From Verrucomicrobiia bacterium (GTDB taxonomy: Bacteria; Verrucomicrobiota; Verrucomicrobiia; JABWAM01), in the NCBI GenBank assembly GCA_028687435.1, contig JAQUAF010000033.1, positions 1-61,014 on the forward strand: DNA of 61,014 nucleotides, in the 5' to 3' direction. Every line of letters starts with the position of its first letter. Positions within the stretch are counted from its first letter, which is position 1. Positions 16,445 through 24,840 of this stretch are shown here, one piece after another. The notes under the pieces were generated by a model. It searched no databases, was not told where the DNA came from, and saw only the letters and a program-made list of their open reading frames with translations. The position numbers and the translations under genes were made by a program.

Positions 16445-17176
16445 TCAGGCAGTCCCCCTGAAGCTTATCGGCGTGATCCCTTTGCTGATGGCATAACGAA
16501 CCAGATCCGCCAGATTTTCCATCTTGAGCTTTTGCATCAGATGAGTCCGGTGCGTATGCACTGTCTTGACGCTGACATGAAGCATGCCGGCAATCTCCTT
16601 GACGCTTCTCCCCTCAGCCAGCAATTGCAGCACCTCTCTCTCCCGGTCGCTGAGATCGGGCGCATCCTTCCCCGTTGCCGCCGCCGAGCTCTTCACATAA
16701 TCCTCGATCACCACCTCGGATATGGACGGACTGATATAGGATTTTCCATCAAAAATCAGGCCAATGGCAAAACGCAACTCTTTGACCGCGCATTCCTTGA
16801 GCAAGTAGCCGCTGGCGCCGGACGAAAAAGCCCTGGCGATGTATTCACGCTCCGCATGCATCGAAAGGATCAATATCTTGACCTCCGGCTGGCGGGCGTG
16901 AATCTGGCGGGTCGCCTCAATGCCATTCAATCCCTCCATGCCGATGTCCATGATCACCACATCGGGAGAAAGGCTCGCGCATTTGGTTACCGCGTCACGC
17001 CCTTGGTCAACCTGTTCAATCACCTTGAACCGGGGTTCCTGCTCGATCAGCACCCTCAACCCCTCTCGCATGATCACATGATCATCCGCCAGAAGGATTC
17101 GAATGCATTTTGCGGCGTTTTCACCCGGGACTTCCGCCGCGGAATGTTCCGGCTCCGTTTTCATATCATTTTTCAT
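16445..17176 (-). CDS. NarL/FixJ family response regulator
   Basis: 243 residues. The receiver domain (about 25-145) has the acidic pocket LLADDH, the phosphoacceptor Asp77 in VVIMDIGM, and the conserved lysine in YLLKE. The C-terminal LuxR-type HTH (about 175-240) reads LSDREREVLQLLAEGRSVKE and VSVKTVHTHRTHLMQKL. Its ATG overlaps the sensor kinase stop (ATGAAAAATGA), so translation is coupled. It is the transcriptional output of the adjacent kinase; target genes are unknown. Confidence 0.93.
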   Translation of the reverse strand: MKNDMKTEPEHSAAEVPGENAAKCIRILLADDHVIMREGLRVLIEQEPRFKVIEQVDQGRDAVTKCASLSPDVVIMDIGMEGLNGIEATRQIHARQPEVKILILSMHAEREYIARAFSSGASGYLLKECAVKELRFAIGLIFDGKSYISPSISEVVIEDYVKSSAAATGKDAPDLSDREREVLQLLAEGRSVKEIAGMLHVSVKTVHTHRTHLMQKLKMENLADLVRYAISKGITPISFRGTA

Positions 17177-18401
17177 TCGTCACTTTCGCAGGATTTTGCG
17201 CGTCACTCGAATCTGCCAGGGGCGTCAGCAGGGAAACAGAGGTTCCCTGTCCCGGACGGGATTCCACCTCCATTCCGCCCCCCAGGCAATGAAGCCGTTC
17301 GCGAATGCTGAACAAACCAAATCCAACATTGCCCTTCACGGCCATCTCCAGCCGCGAGGGTTCCATGCCATTGCCTTCATCCCGGACCGTCACCCTGATT
17401 CTTCCGCCATCCCGCCTGATGGACACCGCGGCCCGAAGAACCCCGGCATGCTTGCACACATTGACCAGCAATTCGCGGACCGCCCGGTAAAGAAAAACAG
17501 CCAAAGGGTGGCTCAATTCCGGCAAATCTTCGTCTGTCTCGACCTGAACCTCAAGCCTCATCAGCCGGCTCATGTTGTCGGCAAGATTCTCCAACGCGGC
17601 AGCCAGCCCCAATTCATACAAAATGGGCGGACTGAGTTGGGCCATAAGCGACCGGATGTCCCCGATCGACCGGTGCAATAAATCGTCAACCTCCTGCAAG
17701 GCGCCGCGCACCCCCCTGGCCTTCTCCAACTGAATAGCCTGTTCCAACTTCAAGGTGGCGAAAGCCAGGGTCTGGGTGATCTCGTCATGAAGCCAGATCG
17801 ACAATTCCCGGCGTTCCCGCTCCTCCGCCATGGACAATTCCATGGCCATGGATTGAAGCTGGCGCTGATAATCAGAACTCGCCATCTCCGCCATGCGCCT
17901 CGCCGTGATGTCGCTGTGGAAGCCAATCATGCGGACCGCCACCCCCCGTTCATCCCTTTCCACCACCCGGGCGTGGGCGTGTATCCACCGGTACCCCCCG
18001 CTCTTGGTTCGCAGGCGAAACTCATCTTCATAGGTGTCCGGTCTCGTCCTCAACCATTCATGGGAGACAGCCAGCGCCGCATCGCGGTCATCCGGATGAA
18101 TCAACTCCACCCAGTTTCCATATGTGGCGGAAAATTCGCCCGGCTCATATCCCAGCATGGTGTAATAGCGAGGGCTGAAATCCATCTTGTTTTCTTTTAA
18201 TTCCCATTTCCAAATCCCCTCCGTGGTGGCGTCCAGCGTCAGCTGGAGTTCCCTGCTGCTTTTCTCCAGCGCCTCGGCCAGTTCGCGCTGCCGCCGATCC
18301 AGATCAGTCTGCCCCGCCGCCTCGTCCGCCCGCGTGCGCGCGCAATCGCGCACCCCCTGCTCCAAGGGCGCGTCCACAACCAATGAATTCGGCGTTGTCA
18401 C
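17166..18401 (-). CDS. PAS-containing sensor histidine kinase (HisKA_3/NarX type, cytoplasmic)
   Basis: 411 residues from GTG 18401, chosen because GAGGA lies 8 bases before it; the frame stays open upstream to 18539. A coiled region is followed by a PAS fold (about 55-165: EGIWKWELKENKMDFSPRYY, then ELIHPDD) with the PAC end GFHSDITARR. The dimerisation domain carries the phosphoacceptor His205 in ELSIWLHDEITQ, followed by a HATPase domain with the N box ELLVNVCKHAG and GFGLFSIRERL. No membrane segment is seen, so it senses a cytoplasmic signal. The response regulator follows with overlap. Confidence 0.9.
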   Translation of the reverse strand: MTTPNSLVVDAPLEQGVRDCARTRADEAAGQTDLDRRQRELAEALEKSSRELQLTLDATTEGIWKWELKENKMDFSPRYYTMLGYEPGEFSATYGNWVELIHPDDRDAALAVSHEWLRTRPDTYEDEFRLRTKSGGYRWIHAHARVVERDERGVAVRMIGFHSDITARRMAEMASSDYQRQLQSMAMELSMAEERERRELSIWLHDEITQTLAFATLKLEQAIQLEKARGVRGALQEVDDLLHRSIGDIRSLMAQLSPPILYELGLAAALENLADNMSRLMRLEVQVETDEDLPELSHPLAVFLYRAVRELLVNVCKHAGVLRAAVSIRRDGGRIRVTVRDEGNGMEPSRLEMAVKGNVGFGLFSIRERLHCLGGGMEVESRPGQGTSVSLLTPLADSSDAQNPAKVTNEK

Positions 18402-18569
18402 AGTGGAGTTCCTCACTAATGCTGAATTCGGGGATGCCGGAGATTGAGATTGAAAAAAACGGAGGCGCTTTTTAATGCGCAACCGCCAAACCCCAATATA
18501 TATCACTTTTTCCGACAAAACAAGGAAAACTCTATTCACTATTTTTCACACAAAAACACACCTAAATTA

Positions 18570-18785
18570 AGCCGGGCCCAAGACCCGGCAACTGCTCGAT
18601 CCGCCTTCGCCCAAGCGCTTCGGCGAGACAAGCGCTCGACGCAGAAACAACTGGATTCCCGCTTTCGCGGGAATGACGATGGTGAAATGGGCATACTCCC
18701 CTTCCGTCATTCCCGCGGATGCGGGAATCCAGAGACTGTCGCAATTTCGTTTTATCCGCAAACATTGAAATTCCTCAACATCAAA
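18570..18785. repeat. dRS3-like composite repeat (family E, copy 2, uninterrupted)
   Basis: Complete unit: CCCGGCAACTGCTCGATCCG, then intact ATTCCCGCTTTCGCGGGAAT, GGTGAAATGGGCATACTCC, ATTCCCGCGGATGCGGGAAT, and the tail to AACATCAAAT. It gives the intact target structure for comparison with the interrupted copies at 13.5 and 42 kb. The bases between the kinase start (18401) and this repeat are A+T-rich with no gene. Confidence 0.88.
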
Positions 18786-19887
18786 TCAAGCCGGCATGGA
18801 GACGCACATCTCTTGTTCCCCTCAACGCCAGCCAGGCCGTGTCCACAAGCGCCATCGCAAACGATTGGGTGAAATAATCAAAGAGCACGCCCCCGTGTTC
18901 CAATCCGGCCAGAAATCCCATCCGTTGCCGCAGCCATGGCGTAATGTGGCGTCCCACGAACGCATAACGTCCCGAAAACACCACCCCGTCAAGACCGCCC
19001 ATCACCGCCGCGGCCGATCCGGCCATCTGCAACAACCGGTAGCAAAAGACATCCCGCGCCAGCCATGCATCCTTGTTTCCCTCCATGAACACCTCGTCAA
19101 GATTCACCTCCCGCCCCGTCAAGCCGGACAAACCGCTCTCCCGGGTCAACACCGCGTCAATCTGCTCGGGTCCCCACCCCAGTTTCTGCGCCAGGGTCAG
19201 CACAATGCTGGGATCCATCTCCCCGCAACTGGTCTGGCCGGGCAACCCCTCCAGCGGCGTCACCCCGCTGGTCGCCATCACCGGACGCAACCCCATGACC
19301 GCCGCAGCCTCGGGACGCGCCTCCAGGCACACCGAAAGAATCCGGCTTCGAACCGGATCCAATCCTCGCCGGCGGACAAACCATCGGCAGGCCGATTCAT
19401 GGAAAACCCCTTGGAAACCATAACGGCGCACCTTCAATCGTTGCGTCAACTCCGGATCAAGGGCATAGGACCTCTCTCGAAAGGGCAAACCGATGAAAAA
19501 TGACGTCTCAAACACCAGCGCCACGGGAATTCCGCCCAGCCATTCCCTTCTTCGCCTCAACAAGGACAGAAGGATCGGCATGTGCAGCGGCGCCTCGGAA
19601 GCCATCGCCTCCAAACGTCGCTCCACCTGATCATCCACCACCACCGGTTTGGAAAACTCATCTCCTCCATAAATGCCGCGCACCACCGCCGCCCGCAGGA
19701 TTTTTTCAACAGGCGCGCCGCGCCACTCCGTTTCGCATTGCAAACGCAACCGGGTCATCGGATCGTTTCCGTCCTCCGCATCCCACTCCCCATCCATCGC
19801 CCCCTCGACAACGCCCTCCGTCCGTCCGTCGTCAACGAACGCGTAATCAAGCCCCGTCCTCCGGGGTTTTAAAACCAGTGTTTTCAT
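18781..19887 (-). CDS. Degenerate acetate kinase paralogue (probable pseudokinase)
   Basis: 368 residues from ATG 19887, preceded by GGAGAGG at good spacing. It aligns with the acetate kinase encoded just upstream, for example VFETSFFIGLPFRERSYAL against VFDTAFHATIPAHARTYAL, and RRYGFQGVFHESA against RKYGFHGTSHQFV. Every catalytic position I can align is changed: the N-terminal NxGSSS loop is missing, Asp148 is Glu, His180 is Gln, VHGG is IYGG, the HLGSGASL-type loop is lost, and Arg241 is Ser (TSCGEMDP). Residue names follow the Methanosarcina enzyme. It is intact, so it is probably retained for a structural or regulatory role. Confidence 0.8.
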   Translation of the reverse strand: MKTLVLKPRRTGLDYAFVDDGRTEGVVEGAMDGEWDAEDGNDPMTRLRLQCETEWRGAPVEKILRAAVVRGIYGGDEFSKPVVVDDQVERRLEAMASEAPLHMPILLSLLRRRREWLGGIPVALVFETSFFIGLPFRERSYALDPELTQRLKVRRYGFQGVFHESACRWFVRRRGLDPVRSRILSVCLEARPEAAAVMGLRPVMATSGVTPLEGLPGQTSCGEMDPSIVLTLAQKLGWGPEQIDAVLTRESGLSGLTGREVNLDEVFMEGNKDAWLARDVFCYRLLQMAGSAAAVMGGLDGVVFSGRYAFVGRHITPWLRQRMGFLAGLEHGGVLFDYFTQSFAMALVDTAWLALRGTRDVRLHAGLI

Positions 19888-19919
19888 TTTGCGCCTCTCC
19901 ATTAAAAAAACTTCAGCCT

Positions 19920-21140
19920 TCAGTCTTCAGCCTTAACAACCTGCGTCTGCAAAGCGCCATACGTCCGCCGCGCAATGGCCAGTTCCTCGTTGGTTTGCAC
20001 CACCAGAATGCGGATGCGGCTGTCGTCAGCGGCCACATCCGCCGGCAGGGACGCAACCTTCGCGTTGAGACCGGCGTCCATCTTCAGCCCGAAAGCCTCC
20101 ATTCCCGAACAAAGCCCCCAACGCACCGCCGGCACGGTCTCGCCGATGGTGTCGGTGAAAATCACCGCCCGCGCATTGCCCACCACCGCCAGGTACGCGC
20201 CCAAATACTTGCGCAGCCGCCACAAATACACCTGCGCCGTGTGATCGAGCCGGACGGTCCAGGTCTCCGTCTGCGATGTGCTGGCCAGCACATCGCGAAT
20301 GTCCGCCGTGCTTCCCGACATCCCCAGCACCCCGCTGCGATTGTTAAGCAACTTCTCCACTTGGGCGCAGTCTCCGCCGGCGCGGGTCAGCAGATTCATG
20401 GCCAGCGCTGGATCCAAATCCCCGCAACGGGTGCTCATCACCAGCCCCTGCAACGGCGAATATCCCATGGTGTTGTCCACGGATTGCCCGTTGCGAATGG
20501 CGCACAGGCTGGCGCCGCCGCTTCCAAGATGACAGCTCACCGCATTGAATAACTCCAGCGGCGTCCCGAGAAAAGCCGCCGCCTCCTCCATCACAAACTG
20601 GTGGCTCGTTCCATGAAACCCGTATTTGCGGATGCCCAGCTCCTGCCGCAACCGCAAAGGCAGGGCATACGTGCGCGCATGCGCCGGAATCGTGGCGTGA
20701 AACGCCGTGTCGAACACCGCCACCTGCGGCAGGTCGGGAAACCTCTCGTGACAGGCCTGCATCAGCGCCATGGCCGGCGGATTGTGCAGGGGCGCCATGT
20801 CGCGCACCTGCTCCAGCCGCGACAACACATTCGCGTCCACCACCGTGGGCTCGCTGAACAGCGTCCCCCCGTGCACCAGCCGGTGCCCCACCGCGCCGGG
20901 CGTCAAGTCCGCGTCCCGATGCAACAGCTTCATCACCTCGACAAAGGCCTCCCCGTGACTGCGCATGGGGGTCTCGAAAGACTCCTTTTTTCCCCGCGCG
21001 TGATGGAAAATGACCGACGGTTTTGCCGTCGGCGGACCAACCCTCTGGGCCTCGCCTCCCGCCCTCTCCACGCCCTTGGGCATGTCAAGCAGGCGGTATT
21101 TCAGCGAGGAACTTCCGCAGTTGAAAACCAGAATGTTCAT
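19920..21140 (-). CDS. ackA: Acetate kinase
   Basis: 406 residues. Catalytic features are intact: NCGSSSLKY at the start, VGHRLVHGG, VFDTAFHATIP, RKYGFHGTSH, SCHLGSGGASL and MSTRCGDLDP. It interconverts acetyl phosphate and acetate with ADP/ATP. The start is ATG 21140; an open frame extends upstream but overlaps the M20 gene. The last residues (VVKAED) and the stop lie inside an intergenic repeat word. It is the second gene of the operon driven by the candidate sigma-54 promoter at 22408-22423, after the M20 hydrolase (14-base gap). A specialised rather than housekeeping role is likely from this context. Confidence 0.92.
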   Translation of the reverse strand: MNILVFNCGSSSLKYRLLDMPKGVERAGGEAQRVGPPTAKPSVIFHHARGKKESFETPMRSHGEAFVEVMKLLHRDADLTPGAVGHRLVHGGTLFSEPTVVDANVLSRLEQVRDMAPLHNPPAMALMQACHERFPDLPQVAVFDTAFHATIPAHARTYALPLRLRQELGIRKYGFHGTSHQFVMEEAAAFLGTPLELFNAVSCHLGSGGASLCAIRNGQSVDNTMGYSPLQGLVMSTRCGDLDPALAMNLLTRAGGDCAQVEKLLNNRSGVLGMSGSTADIRDVLASTSQTETWTVRLDHTAQVYLWRLRKYLGAYLAVVGNARAVIFTDTIGETVPAVRWGLCSGMEAFGLKMDAGLNAKVASLPADVAADDSRIRILVVQTNEELAIARRTYGALQTQVVKAED

Positions 21141-21154
21141 GGCGCGCCCCGGGT

Positions 21155-22381
21155 TTAGATTTCGTCCGTGGTCCAGCCGCACACCGGAACCCCGATCAGC
21201 CCGTGAACAATCGCCGCCGTCCCATAAACCGCCTCGCTCATCCGGGCCACTTCCACCCATTCGCCGGGCCGGTGCGCCTGCTCCTCCAGTCCGGGGCCAT
21301 AACCGATGGTGGGGATCCCGAATTCCTTCACCAGCACACTGCCCGCCGTTCCCATCCCCAGACGTCCGAGACGCCACTTCCCGGGTTTCGCCTCGCATCC
21401 CGCAGCCGCCAGCGACTGCCGCGCCCGGGCCAGCAAAGGATGAAATGGATCGGTTTCCCATGCGTTGGTCAGATGCTTCACCACGGTGGTCCGTCCATTG
21501 CACATCCTCTGCTTCTCCTCCCTCACCATCACCTCCACCGCCACCATGCCGCTGCTCTGCGCCACCAAGCCGGCCTCATGCTGAACCTCTTTGAGAACCC
21601 CTCCCTCATCCTCGTCCGGCAACAACCGCCGGGTCATGGGAATCGTGGCACGATGACAACCCTCCGCCTTTTCAAAACTCGGCTGCCGGATCGACATCGT
21701 TTCCAGACGGTTTTCGCCGCTGGAAATTCCACCCCGTTTTCCAAAATCATTGAAAATCGCCATGGCGGCATCGTCCACATGAAACGGATTCGCTCCCTCG
21801 ATCAGGATGTCCATCTCCATCCATCCGTCATGTCCATAATACAACCCCAAACCCGTCGGCTCGCCCAGAATGGCAAAGTTCGGTTTCAACCCCATCTCGG
21901 GCAGCGTTTTTTCAATCAAGGTTCTCACTCCCACACTGCAACCGTTTTCCTCCGCCACGGTCGCCGCCACCACCAGATGCCCCCGCAAAGGCAGCAAACT
22001 GCGTTTCAACAACGCGCCCGCGTAAATCTGCGCCGCCAGCCCCCCCTTGCAATCCGCCGCGCCCAGTCCATACAACCTGCCCTTTTCAATGCTGCCGGCT
22101 TCCGGCGCATCGGCTGTCTTTCCCTTCGCCGGGGAAACCGTGTCCAGATGCGAATTGAGCAGAATCACCGGCTCGCTCTCCCTCCCGAGAATCAACCCCG
22201 CCACGTTGCCCGCGTCGTCGCGAAACACCTTGTCGAACCCAACCGCATTCATCCGCTTCTCGACAAGTCCCGCCGCCGCGTCCTCGTCCAGACTCACGCT
22301 GTTTTGTCTCACCAAATCCTGGGCAAAAGAGACCAGCTCCGTTCCCAAGCCTGCGCTTTTGTTTTTAAGTAGAGTGTACAT
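21155..22381 (-). CDS. M20 family metallohydrolase (deacetylase/dipeptidase type)
   Basis: About 408 residues. Metal-site motifs of the ArgE/DapE/YgeY group are present: NSHLDTVSP, GLGAADCKGGLAAQ, AEENGCSVG and LGEPTGL; GYGPGLEEQAHRPGEWV carries the last histidine. The family removes acyl groups or cleaves small amides with two zinc or cobalt ions. GGAGG lies 7 bases before ATG 22381. It heads an operon with acetate kinase and its degenerate paralogue. Acetate released by a deacetylase would be a natural substrate for the kinase, but this link is inference. Confidence 0.85.
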   Translation of the reverse strand: MYTLLKNKSAGLGTELVSFAQDLVRQNSVSLDEDAAAGLVEKRMNAVGFDKVFRDDAGNVAGLILGRESEPVILLNSHLDTVSPAKGKTADAPEAGSIEKGRLYGLGAADCKGGLAAQIYAGALLKRSLLPLRGHLVVAATVAEENGCSVGVRTLIEKTLPEMGLKPNFAILGEPTGLGLYYGHDGWMEMDILIEGANPFHVDDAAMAIFNDFGKRGGISSGENRLETMSIRQPSFEKAEGCHRATIPMTRRLLPDEDEGGVLKEVQHEAGLVAQSSGMVAVEVMVREEKQRMCNGRTTVVKHLTNAWETDPFHPLLARARQSLAAAGCEAKPGKWRLGRLGMGTAGSVLVKEFGIPTIGYGPGLEEQAHRPGEWVEVARMSEAVYGTAAIVHGLIGVPVCGWTTDEI

Positions 22382-22407
22382 AATCAAACCTCCGCAACCG
22401 CCTTATG

Positions 22408-22423
22408 AGCACCAGCCATGCCA
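22408..22423 (-). promoter_or_regulatory. Candidate sigma-54 (RpoN) promoter for the M20-ackA operon
   Basis: The minus strand reads TGGCATGGCTGGTGCT: the -24 GG and -12 GC are exactly 10 bases apart, matching TGGCAC-N5-TTGC with one change in each box. The predicted start site is near 22397, about 16 bases before ATG 22381 and just upstream of the GGAGG ribosome binding site. The divergent neighbour is a sigma-54 activator. Confidence 0.7.
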
Positions 22424-22503
22424 ACACCCCTCCGGCGTCTCTGCCCGGGCAAACCTCTCCACAACCCTTTATCAATATTTCATCTTGCAACACAACCATT
22501 TCA

Positions 22504-22533
22504 ATGTGATATTTCATTATGAAATATTCACAT
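22504..22533. promoter_or_regulatory. Palindromic upstream activator site candidate
   Basis: ATGTGATATTTCAT and ATGAAATATTCACAT form a near-perfect inverted repeat with one bulged base, centred at 22518, about 120 bases upstream of the predicted start site. A further half site (AATATTTCAT) lies at 22474-22483. Distance and symmetry suit an enhancer for the XylR-type activator encoded next door; it also lies upstream of that gene and could mediate autoregulation. Confidence 0.6.
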
Positions 22534-22588
22534 GAAATGGAAGTGCGGGCGCCCAGCCCCATACCGCCAACATTTCGTCCGAAGACAA

Positions 22589-22654
22589 GCGGTGCAGGAG
22601 CCCCGCCCTCCATTGTCCGCATGGTAAAAAAGGAGGGCGGGGCTCCCGCACCGC
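22589..22654. repeat. GC-rich palindrome (family D, copy 4)
   Basis: 23-base arms (GCGGTGCAGGAGCCCCGCC and complement) match at 22 positions. It lies between the sigma-54 promoter region and the activator start; a family C repeat (AACAGTCTAACAGCTTCAG, 22659-22688) follows immediately. Confidence 0.85.
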
Positions 22655-22698
22655 CATTCCTAACAGTCTAACAGCTTCAGCCTAAACCACCTCCCCCC

Positions 22699-24327
22699 AT
22701 GAAAGCCACCGACCTTCGCCTGAAGGAAATCATCGAATTCTCGGCCGGACGCCTCAACCTCAAGGGACGGCGGCTGGTTCTTCACGACATCCATGCCTTC
22801 GCCCAGTTTCGCAAGGATCTTCTGGACATGGCGGGACTGGATCATGCCCGGCGCATGCTCACTCGTTTCGGTTTTTTCTGGGGACAGGCCGACGCCGCCG
22901 CCATGAAACGGATTTTCGAGTGGGACAACCTCGCCGAATGGATCAAGGCCGGCGCCCAGTTGCACACCCTGCAGGGAGTCAACCGCACGGTGATCAAATC
23001 CCTCCGGATTGACGAACCCTCCGGACAGTTCGAGATGGAATTGATCTGGCACGATTCCGCCGAGGCCGAGGAACACCTGGCCACCGTGGGGCCCGCCAGG
23101 GAACCCATCTGCTGGATGATGTCCGGCTACGCCAGCGGCTATTGCTCCTTTTGTCTCAACCGGGAAATCTATTTTATCGAAACCCAATGCACGGCTTGCG
23201 GCAAACGGGCGTGCGCAGCCACCGGACGCGACCGCGCCTCTTGGGGCGTCGCTTTAAAACCCCATCTTTCCTTTTACCAGTTCGGCGACATCAACAGCAA
23301 AGTGCGGCAACTCTCCCAGCAATTGCGCCAAAAAACCCGCGAATTGGAGGAACACCGAAAACTGCTCGGCCTTGGCGGTGGAGAATCACGCCCCCTGTTT
23401 CTCGAAGTGCGAAGCGAGGCGTTCCGCCGGGTGATGGACCTGGCCGCGCGGGTCGCCCCCTTCGATTCCTCCGTGCTGATCAGCGGAGAGACCGGCACCG
23501 GCAAGGAGGTGCTGGCGCGCTACATCCACCGTCAATCGCACCGGGCCGCCAAATCATTCGTGGGAGTCAACTGCACCGCCCTGCCCGAAACCCTGCTGGA
23601 AAGCGAACTGTTCGGCCACCGCGCCGGCGCCTTCACCGGCGCCGCGCGCGACCGGGTGGGCCTTTTCGAACAGGCCAATCACGGCACCATTTTTCTCGAC
23701 GAAATCGGCGACATCTCCCCCGGCATGCAAATGAAAATCCTGCGCGTCCTGCAGGAACGGGAAATCACGCGCGTGGGCGAAAACAAACCGCGCCCAATCG
23801 ACGTCCGGGTGCTGGCCGCCACCAACCGCAACCTGACCCAGGCCATCCACGAAGGACGTTTCCGGGAGGATCTCTACTATCGGCTGCGTGTCATCGAAAT
23901 TGAAATTCCCCCCCTGCGCGACCGGCGCGACGACATCCTTCCTCTGGCCCGCTATTTCATCCGCCAACTGGCGGAAAAACTGAAGCTTCCCAACCTGCGG
24001 ATGGACGCCACCTGCATCGACCCTTTGCAATCCCATGAATGGCCGGGCAACGTCCGCGAATTGGAGAACACCCTGGAGCGGGCAGCCATCCTCTGCCGCA
24101 ACCAGGTTATTCTGCCTGAAACTCTCCCCTCCCACATCATTCATTCCTCCCCACCTTACCCCGCCTCCCCTTCCGCCACCCGCCAAACCCTTGCCGAAAT
24201 GCAAGCCTCCCGCATCGAGGAAGCCCTCAAAACCACCGGCGGCAACCGCGCCCAAGCCGCCAGACTGCTGGGCATCAGCCCCGTCACCCTGTGGCGAAAG
24301 CTGAAAAACAAATCAGCGGACTCATGA
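22699..24327 (+). CDS. XylR/DmpR-type sigma-54-dependent activator with aromatic-sensing domain
   Basis: 542 residues. The N-terminal XylR_N plus V4R sensor (about 1-200) is followed by a B linker, a sigma-54 AAA+ domain (about 230-460; [24 protein letters not shown]) and a Fis-type HTH ([20 protein letters not shown]). The zinc ligands of MopR/DmpR are kept with identical spacing: Cys138, Glu161, Cys164, Cys172. The two phenol-contacting residues, His106 and Trp134 in MopR, align as His89 and Trp117. It therefore probably binds a phenolic effector and hydrolyses ATP to open sigma-54 promoters. The divergent M20-ackA operon has a sigma-54 promoter and a palindrome between the genes. No clear Shine-Dalgarno sequence precedes the ATG. 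Confidence 0.92.
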
Positions 24328-24387
24328 ACGGTTCATCCGACATTTGAGGAACAACAGAAAAACATATTGGATGGGAACACTCTCTCG

Positions 24388-24840
24388 TCATTGGACGCTG
24401 TAGTTTCGATCTATCATTTTCTTATGGACAGCATCCACACGGGGGCTCGCCAGGATGCCAGCCTGAATCCGCAGGACAATCTCGGACGGGAGATCGGGAT
24501 GATGTCCAAGTTCCTTCATTGCAAATTTTGTCACAAGTTCCGCCATCGATATCTCGAAAACCTGATTGCAGTCAATGAGGGTTTGCTTGCTAAACGGGGC
24601 GTACTCAGCAGGATCCACAGGAACAAGCGTGTTCTCCGGCATGGCGCGCCGCCGAGCCCGGATTTTCTCGACTTGAGAAGAAGCCACAGCCAGTAAAAGC
24701 AGGGCATCCGATTGAGGGGTTTTGTTGGCAACAATGAAGTAATGCGGTTCGGGCGAATAGAGTCCACGGTGGACGAAATAATAAACCGTGCCCGGGCGCA
24801 ACGTCAGGCGCAGATCGAATGGCAGCGCGGCTTCACCCAC
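24388..24840 (-). CDS. Putative toxin of a Panacea-type toxin-antitoxin pair
   Basis: 150 residues from GTG 24840, preceded by a GAGGGGG ribosome binding site. Not assigned to a named family. The first two thirds are beta-rich (GTVYYFVHRGLYSPEPHYFI, DALLLLAVASSQVEKIRAR) and then TLVPVDPAEYAPFSKQTLID, a layout that recalls PemK-like toxins. It starts 10 bases after the stop of a Panacea-domain gene, the usual position for the partner. Toxin activity is inferred from pairing only. Confidence 0.6.
   Translation of the reverse strand: MGEAALPFDLRLTLRPGTVYYFVHRGLYSPEPHYFIVANKTPQSDALLLLAVASSQVEKIRARRRAMPENTLVPVDPAEYAPFSKQTLIDCNQVFEISMAELVTKFAMKELGHHPDLPSEIVLRIQAGILASPRVDAVHKKMIDRNYSVQ

Follow-up and report, generated by a model that had tools for sequence, protein, structure and literature searches.

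A recurrent cassette encoding an M20 hydrolase, an acetate kinase with a pyrophosphate-type signature and an acetate kinase pseudoenzyme, facing a gene for a DmpR-like activator

Introduction

What phosphoryl donor would be used by an acetate kinase whose gene lies between the genes for a metallohydrolase and for a degenerate paralog of the kinase, behind a sigma-54-type promoter site and opposite the gene for a phenol-type activator? This question is raised by a stretch of 61,014 nucleotides (hereafter the window; contig JAQUAF010000033.1, forward strand) from the assembly GCA_028687435.1 of a Verrucomicrobiia bacterium (5.97 Mb, 154 contigs, 94% complete), in which genes for an M20 metallohydrolase, an acetate kinase (AckA) and an acetate kinase-like protein (here AckP) face a divergent activator gene (Table 1). 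The reading that we prefer, with evenly balanced confidence, is that these four genes form a cassette which is conserved together with its -24/-12 site, and whose AckA is predicted to work with inorganic pyrophosphate and phosphate (PPi/Pi) instead of ATP/ADP and is likely to form a heteromer with AckP. What is new here is the indication, drawn from sequence comparisons, that the cassette AckA departs from the standard ATP-type acetate kinase. In the articles cited here by PubMed Central number, Entamoeba is the one source for which PPi-dependent acetate kinase activity is established (PMC5517563, PMC8863071, PMC5931981), alongside a handful of putative bacterial sequences, and the activity was sought in Desulfobulbus propionicus and not found (PMC3072085). 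A pseudoenzyme partner for an acetate kinase was not found in a single search aimed at it among open-licence PubMed Central papers.

Results

When a profile of AckP homologs was searched in species genomes, 45 loci were recovered besides the window, and all four genes are present in 38 of them, the activator gene being on the opposite strand in the listed loci and the other genes following the order M20, AckA, AckP. The record titles of the 45 loci name Omnitrophota, Lentisphaerota, Kiritimatiellota, Verrucomicrobiota, Planctomycetota, Sumerlaeota, Myxococcota, Bacteroidota and one Desulfobacter metagenome-assembled genome, where single placements may be wrong because most of the records are metagenome assemblies. 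Genes are lost at or near a contig end in L055, L072, L078 and L094; L071 is without the activator and the start of the M20 gene, despite 3.3 kb of upstream sequence; and L095 and L096 are weak or partial matches. Clustering of the open reading frames revealed no other gene family in more than 5 of the 45 loci, although small, fast-evolving genes would escape it and many flanks end at contig ends. Apart from the four genes and frames overlapping them, the recurring frames are by eye sensor-kinase/receiver-like (5 loci), Gfo/Idh-like (4 loci) and sigma-factor-like (3 loci). Two loci carry additional genes, viz. tandem M20 genes within one cassette (L066:4132-6668) and an extra AckA-like gene (39% identity) just past the activator gene (L058:4436-5713).

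The distribution of AckP and AckA was also compared across 387 genomes of the window's phylum, with at most 5 AckP and 4 AckA candidates scored per genome, so that a miss is possible. AckP is present in 12 of these genomes, in eleven at 407-464 bits, with 206 bits for the next other match, and in the twelfth (G153) at 205 bits; the low score of G153 is due to a frame that ends after 242 amino acids (aa), and the AckP motifs are present in it. Cassette-type AckA (511-917 bits, next match 319) is found in exactly the same 12 genomes. The short AckP frame of G153 (L111:52-780) lies beside a full-length AckA gene, and its early end may reflect an early stop or a frameshift. Further, of 42 loci in which starts were placed by homology, 26 are estimated to have overlapping ackA and ackP frames, the overlap being 4 nt in 16 of them.

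The region between the M20 and activator genes was examined in 39 cases (the window and 38 loci). Candidate promoters were scored against TGGCAYR-N4-TTGCW with GG-N10-GC, a score of at least 10 of 12 being taken as strong, and the chance level was obtained from 100 rounds of shuffling, in which the kinship among the loci, some of them close relatives, is ignored. A strong -24/-12 score is seen in 30 of the 39 regions, where the shuffles gave 0.72 on average and never more than 2. Similarly, at least two TTTCAnnnTGAAA-like sites (up to 2 mismatches) are present in 29 of the 39 regions (shuffles: mean 1, maximum 4), the motif having been derived from the same regions in which its sites were counted; the spacing is 20-22 bp in 25 of these 29, the exceptions between neighbouring sites being L053, L067, L083 and L092. 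The regions missing a strong promoter score are L060, L063, L066, L073, L087, L089, L090, L091 and L093, among which L087, L090, L091 and L093 by eye keep GG-N10-G with a base other than C after the G. No TTTCAnnnTGAAA-like site is present in L089, L091 and L093 and one weak site in L087, and a palindrome of another kind occurs in L089 and L091. On this evidence, both the cassette and its promoter architecture are well supported by conservation.

In the window, the site TGGCATGGCTGGTGCT lies 27 bases before the M20 ATG at 22381, and transcription is predicted to start near 22397. The GG-N10-GC spacing and the conserved flanks of this site are accompanied by one rpoN match in the source genome, and a consensus scan of 18300-24500 gave no sigma-70-like site. 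Two further copies, each with a single mismatch, lie 13 and 34 bp from the window's perfect TTTCAnnnTGAAA site, and the centre of the core TTTCATTATGAAA precedes the -24 element by about 95 bases. The intergenic region itself is atypical in its length (317 bp versus a median of 186). An inverted repeat with 26-nt arms (92%) occupies 22589-22654, between the binding-site region and the activator gene, and it may be an insertion, as the intergenic regions of relatives are mostly shorter. A first-pass annotation of this DNA had described M20, AckA and AckA-like genes facing a divergent XylR/DmpR-type activator, with a GG-N10-GC sigma-54 promoter 27 bases before a GGAGG-led ATG and a palindrome some 120 bases further upstream, and had proposed that the gene set be sought elsewhere. 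The gene layout agrees with the coordinates and Pfam domains determined here, the promoter is upheld by sequence and conservation, and the gene set does recur in other genomes; the palindrome also stands, as an imperfect inverted repeat, but the distance given for it does not.

On the acetyl-transfer side of the cassette AckA the residues are kept, viz. Asn7, Ser10, Ser12, Arg91, His123, Asp148, His180, Arg241 and Glu384, and the acetate pocket is largely so (Val93 in 39 of 44 rows, Leu122 as Leu/Ile in 40, Phe179 in 44 and Pro232 in 44). The nucleotide side is different: all 43 cassette AckAs contain HLGSGG, with an extra Gly in PHOSPHATE2, together with FTDT(I/V)GE, Asp330 next to the Gln323 position in the ADENOSINE motif, and Ser239 replacing a Gly of LOOP3, a replacement found in 0 of the 14 ATP types in the tree set. 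At the corresponding places the alignment of the Entamoeba histolytica enzyme (EhACK, 4h0o) reads HLGTGG, STRCGD and FTDQMG. Among 120 listed homologs of the window AckA, HLGSGG is present in 116 and FTDTIGE, FTDTVGE or FTDSIGE in 118; the aligned subset A3 consisted of the window protein and 34 of the 43 listed AckAs. The assignment of the cassette AckA as a standard ATP acetate kinase was set aside, its nucleotide-side loops being altered in 43 of 43. Of 30 AckA loci fetched from the phylum, 12 are cassette loci with HLGSGG and FTDT(I/V)GE, one (L156) belongs to a second type (HLGTGG, FTDD) and 17 are without the extra Gly, including L158, which has Ser at the Asn211 position. In L158 (964-3303) and L164 (913-3306) the acetate kinase is embedded in a long open frame that extends beyond it on both sides; by eye, from their motifs, the additional N-terminal part resembles a cyclic-nucleotide-binding domain and the C-terminal one a PduL-type phosphotransacylase.

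In the enzyme MtACK, Asn211, Gly239 and Gly331 are involved in contacting or positioning the nucleotide, and single replacements of them cut activity 6- to 200-fold (PMC4390882). The extra PHOSPHATE2 Gly and the adjacent Asp are common to the Entamoeba enzymes and four putative Anaerolineaceae ones, and further such sequences from anaerobic-digester metagenomes are mentioned (Dang and Ingram-Smith 2017, PMC5517563).

Phylogenetic trees were constructed from 12 cassettes (the window and 11 loci), three AckAs of the second type and 12 other AckAs (one from the source genome, the rest hand-picked as 11 of the 17 remaining non-cassette loci). The trees with and without the motif columns also contained EhACK and 1tuu, and the one with these columns 2iir, and one tree included 15 of 97 family-2 matches (see below). 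With or without the motif columns, the cassette AckA, the second bacterial type and EhACK split from the ATP types (100/99). EhACK groups with the second type (100/100), and the cassette AckA is therefore a neighbouring lineage outside the Entamoeba group in these unrooted trees. A common origin with EhACK, apart from the ATP types, would be compatible with an unrooted tree of this kind but is not proved by it.

The second AckA type (HLGTGG, FTDDIG) occurs in three genomes of the phylum, and in each it is followed by a degenerate AckA different from AckP (family 2, of which 92 proteins above 190 bits were listed, the query included). The best solved match of this type is EhACK, with 329 bits versus 311 for the next. 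A FolE2-like gene comes next in 2 of the 3 loci, and no M20 or activator match was seen beside the three pairs in the stretches read. In a 54-row tree AckP and family 2 fall on the same side of a branch (100/97), a grouping that may be due to long-branch attraction.

AckP homologs form a set of about a hundred listed proteins, after which the scores drop from 190 bits (P0102) to 165 bits (P0103); for the subset A1, 48 of the other 119 listed homologs were taken in addition to the window protein. In 44 proteins the Asn7, Ser10, Ser12 and Lys14 positions are scrambled, the Asp148 position is Glu in 35 and Asp in 5, the His208 position is Cys in 43, and Arg241 is lost in all 44, while Glu384 is replaced in 42 of 42 covering proteins (Leu in 29). 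Largely kept are Arg91 (31 of 44), His123 (38), His180 (37; Gln in the window), His184 (43) and Pro232 (44). Judged by these residues, AckP is a pseudoenzyme that retains part of the acetate side. Its predicted fold (mean predicted local distance difference test score 88.8) matches acetate kinases. The source genome encodes a further AckA-like protein (L003; G000:C29:4432-5484), with Lys at Arg91 and Glu at Asp148, which is neither of the canonical nor of the cassette type.

The activator consists of XylR_N, V4R, sigma-54 AAA+ and Fis-type helix-turn-helix domains (Pfam), and its best solved match is CapR/DmpR. To locate its sensor residues, the CapR/DmpR alignment and the DmpR article PMC7264223 were used; for the zinc ligands the alignment was followed, as the Cys151, Cys177 and Cys185 of that article misfit the chain numbering that suits its other residues. 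Among 39 proteins, those of the window and its relatives, all have the four DmpR-type zinc ligands and 38 the pocket Trp, while the phenol-anchoring His is present in 25 (otherwise Gln in 9, Leu in 4 and Cys in 1). As the window activator keeps the zinc ligands, the Trp and the His, a phenol-like effector is plausible for it; the effector may differ among cassettes. Linked aromatic catabolic genes, such as would be expected of a DmpR/XylR-type system, were not seen by eye among the frame families that recur in three or more of the 45 loci.

The M20 protein is predicted to have a two-domain fold nearest to DapE, N-acetyl-ornithine/lysine deacetylase, 5-nitroanthranilate aminohydrolase and LysK. 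Conservation extends to the metal ligands and the catalytic Glu: His78 and Asp110 in 40 of 40 covering proteins, His370, Glu144 and Glu174 in 41 of 41 and Glu145 in 35 of 41 (the subset A2 being the window and 37 of 38 listed locus proteins). The lid-domain His of 7uoi is catalytic. At the position aligned to it His is never found in the 41 proteins, Phe being present in 29, and the next position is His in 14. As the best NCBIfam model of the M20 protein is YgeY, AckA could instead be a kinase for another small carboxylate or carbamate (propionate, carbamoyl phosphate) in an anaerobic degradation of nitrogen compounds related to the YgeY pathway. We consider this quite improbable: the protein scores 185 bits against a YgeY cut-off of 321, the acetate-pocket residues Val93, Leu122, Phe179 and Pro232 are largely kept, and no YgeY-pathway gene was seen recurring beside the cassette when frames from the 45 loci were clustered. 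A YgeY-pathway operon was set aside on the first of these grounds.

The source genome has one canonical ackA-pta pair, on another contig, and one membrane pyrophosphatase; a search limited to the PF00719 family found no soluble pyrophosphatase in this 94% complete assembly. This combination fits a cell able to keep and use PPi, although the evidence is circumstantial.

The features of the window and the second-type pairs are listed in Table 1. Outside the conserved cassette, genes for a PAS-type sensor kinase and a LuxR-type response regulator lie downstream on the same strand (16445-18539), and an inverted repeat with 28-nt arms (93%) that resembles a dispersed repeat is located 3' of ackP (18651-18732). 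No Rfam match and no tRNA were found.

Table 1. Positions of the cassette genes, the associated sites and the second-type gene pairs
Feature	Position	Strand	Evidence
ackP, acetate kinase-like pseudoenzyme, 373 aa	18781-19902	-	PF00871 137 bits; homologs; phosphate/nucleotide residues lost, acetate side partly kept
ackA with pyrophosphate-type signature, 406 aa	19920-21140	-	PF00871 373 bits; HLGSGG, Ser239, Asp330, Thr331 (MtACK numbering); tree
M20 metallohydrolase, distant to YgeY and DapE/ArgE, 408 aa	21155-22381	-	PF01546; metal ligands conserved; model DapE/LysK-like
GGAGG ribosome-binding site before ATG 22381	22393-22389	-	sequence
-24/-12 sigma-54-type promoter TGGCATGGCTGGTGCT	22423-22408	-	GG-N10-GC; 11/12 scored positions; conserved in relatives
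Outer activator-site-like copy, 1 mismatch to TTTCAnnnTGAAA	22478-22490		site scan
Imperfect inverted repeat, proposed upstream activating sequence	22491-22545		arms 22491-22517/22519-22545, 27 nt, 74% complementary
Palindrome core TTTCATTATGAAA	22512-22524		second copy with 1 mismatch at 22499-22511
XylR_N-V4R-AAA+-HTH_8 activator, 542 aa, divergent	22699-24327	+	Pfam domains; sensor residues
Second-type AckA and family-2 pseudo-AckA	L205:7710-10155, L206:6354-8815, L207:2115-4474		

Discussion

If the preferred reading, of a PPi-using AckA joined to AckP, is correct, then the cassette could work as follows. The activator, responding to a small, probably phenol-like effector, would bind the TTTCAnnnTGAAA sites upstream of the -24 element and open the sigma-54 polymerase at its promoter, leading to transcription of M20-ackA-ackP. 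The M20 enzyme would cleave an amide or ester to free a short carboxylate, of which acetate is the simplest candidate; AckA would convert acetyl phosphate and Pi into acetate and PPi or the reverse, with AckP acting as a structural or ligand-sensing partner. The PPi could feed the membrane pyrophosphatase or come from it, and acetyl phosphate could provide a link to the separate ackA-pta operon.

Several observations weigh against this reading and need to be considered. The window AckA scores 321 bits to 1g99 (ATP) versus 245 to 4h0o, and the profile of its family 437 bits to 2iir versus 347 to 4h0o. Position 331 is Thr (Gln in Entamoeba, Asp in Anaerolineaceae) and Ile/Val332 is kept, due to which the adenosine pocket may be only partly closed. 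The Asn211Ser change is shared by the Cryptococcus enzyme, whose preference is for ATP (PMC4390882); MtACK with its pocket closed (G331Q-I332M) did not use PPi, and the authors leave undecided whether the bacterial sequences use PPi (PMC5517563). No residue set sufficient for PPi use is known. EhACK forms a very long branch in the trees. One of the three second-type pairs came from a search with AckA and two from a search with the partner, a mode of finding that is biased towards copies with a partner. The pocket His of the regulator is replaced in 14 of 39 proteins. The TTTCAnnnTGAAA motif occurs at 40 places in the source genome (reversed control 2; TTTCATnATGAAA at 6 places and TTTCATwATGAAA at 4), and by itself the site is therefore unspecific. 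The absence of a soluble pyrophosphatase refers to the one family sought, in an incomplete assembly. Further, the AckA-AckP distance correlation is 0.834, compared with 0.844-0.908 for the other five pairs of cassette proteins, so that a specific sign of co-evolution is absent.

The higher similarity of AckA to ATP enzymes, its intact acetyl-transfer residues and largely intact acetate pocket, the DmpR pocket features of the sensor and the deacetylase-like fold of the M20 protein would all suit ordinary ATP-driven salvage, the idea of the first-pass annotation, in which the M20 enzyme deacetylates an aromatic amide or a similar compound and AckA makes acetyl phosphate from the acetate with ATP. 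However, this explanation appears rather unlikely to us, as Asn211, Gly239 and Gly331, on the nucleotide side, are replaced in each of the 43 cassette AckAs, and single changes there are so costly to MtACK, the separate ackA-pta pair already covers the ordinary chemistry, and no aromatic pathway gene was seen to recur nearby. From the earlier interpretation, the sigma-54-type promoter, the repeated palindromic sites, the divergent DmpR-like activator gene and the conserved gene set are retained, and the pseudoenzyme label has gained from the family-wide loss of nucleotide and phosphate residues. What has changed is that simple ATP-driven salvage is no longer the first expectation, because AckA has a PPi-type signature and is linked to a pseudoenzyme neighbour; the proposed release of acetate could hold with PPi replacing ATP.

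A different question is whether AckP is a subunit at all, or a separate sensor/regulator or decaying paralog. The latter would agree with the loss of most of its catalytic residues, its place as the least conserved of the four proteins (38% mean identity), its shortening to 242 aa in one genome and the co-evolution result described above. We nevertheless hold it to be unlikely, since AckP has invariant motifs throughout its family and co-occurs strictly with AckA, and since the frequent start/stop overlap and the existence of a second pair point to a function tied to AckA. The AckA-AckP heteromer is thus predicted from linkage and recurrence and not from a contact signal.

Considering the above, it seems possible, and we put it forward tentatively and at somewhat less than even confidence, that bacteria possess a heteromeric PPi acetate kinase made of a catalytic and a pseudoenzyme subunit, in at least two paired lineages over several phyla, which is here switched on together with a hydrolase by a phenol-sensing sigma-54 circuit and of which the Entamoeba enzyme is a partner-free relative. 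A pseudoenzyme-paired PPi acetate kinase, if true, would be a new layout for a familiar energy enzyme, and an aromatic-type sensor would gain a target operon that matches no pathway known to us. With carriers of the cassette that include Pontiella sulfatireligans F21 as well as two Pontiellaceae, none of them marked in its record as a metagenome assembly, PPi-linked acetate metabolism in bacteria would be directly testable.

Comparison with known systems

The activator has the same domain set, zinc ligands and pocket Trp as DmpR, MopR and XylR, and in the case of the window the pocket His as well, whereas its target genes include no recognised aromatic pathway gene, the pocket His is replaced in part of the relatives, and the position of DmpR Phe93 is Leu/Ile/Val. 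The M20 protein has the fold and metal-ligand positions of YgeY and of DapE/ArgE/LysK, but it falls under their curated cut-offs and its lid-domain His is not conserved. The canonical ackA-pta kinase has the same fold and acetate-side catalytic residues as the cassette AckA, in which however the nucleotide side is altered, and a pseudoenzyme gene is the neighbour where pta stands in the canonical pair. With EhACK (4h0o) and its putative Anaerolineaceae relatives (PMC5517563), the cassette AckA shares the extra PHOSPHATE2 Gly, Ser239, Asp330, a residue other than Gly at 331 and its side of the tree. It differs from EhACK in having Thr-Ile instead of Gln-Met at 331-332 and Ser instead of Thr at 211, its overall similarity is lower to EhACK than to the ATP enzymes, and, unlike that of EhACK, its gene follows a sigma-54-type promoter site in one set with genes for an M20 hydrolase and a pseudoenzyme paralog.

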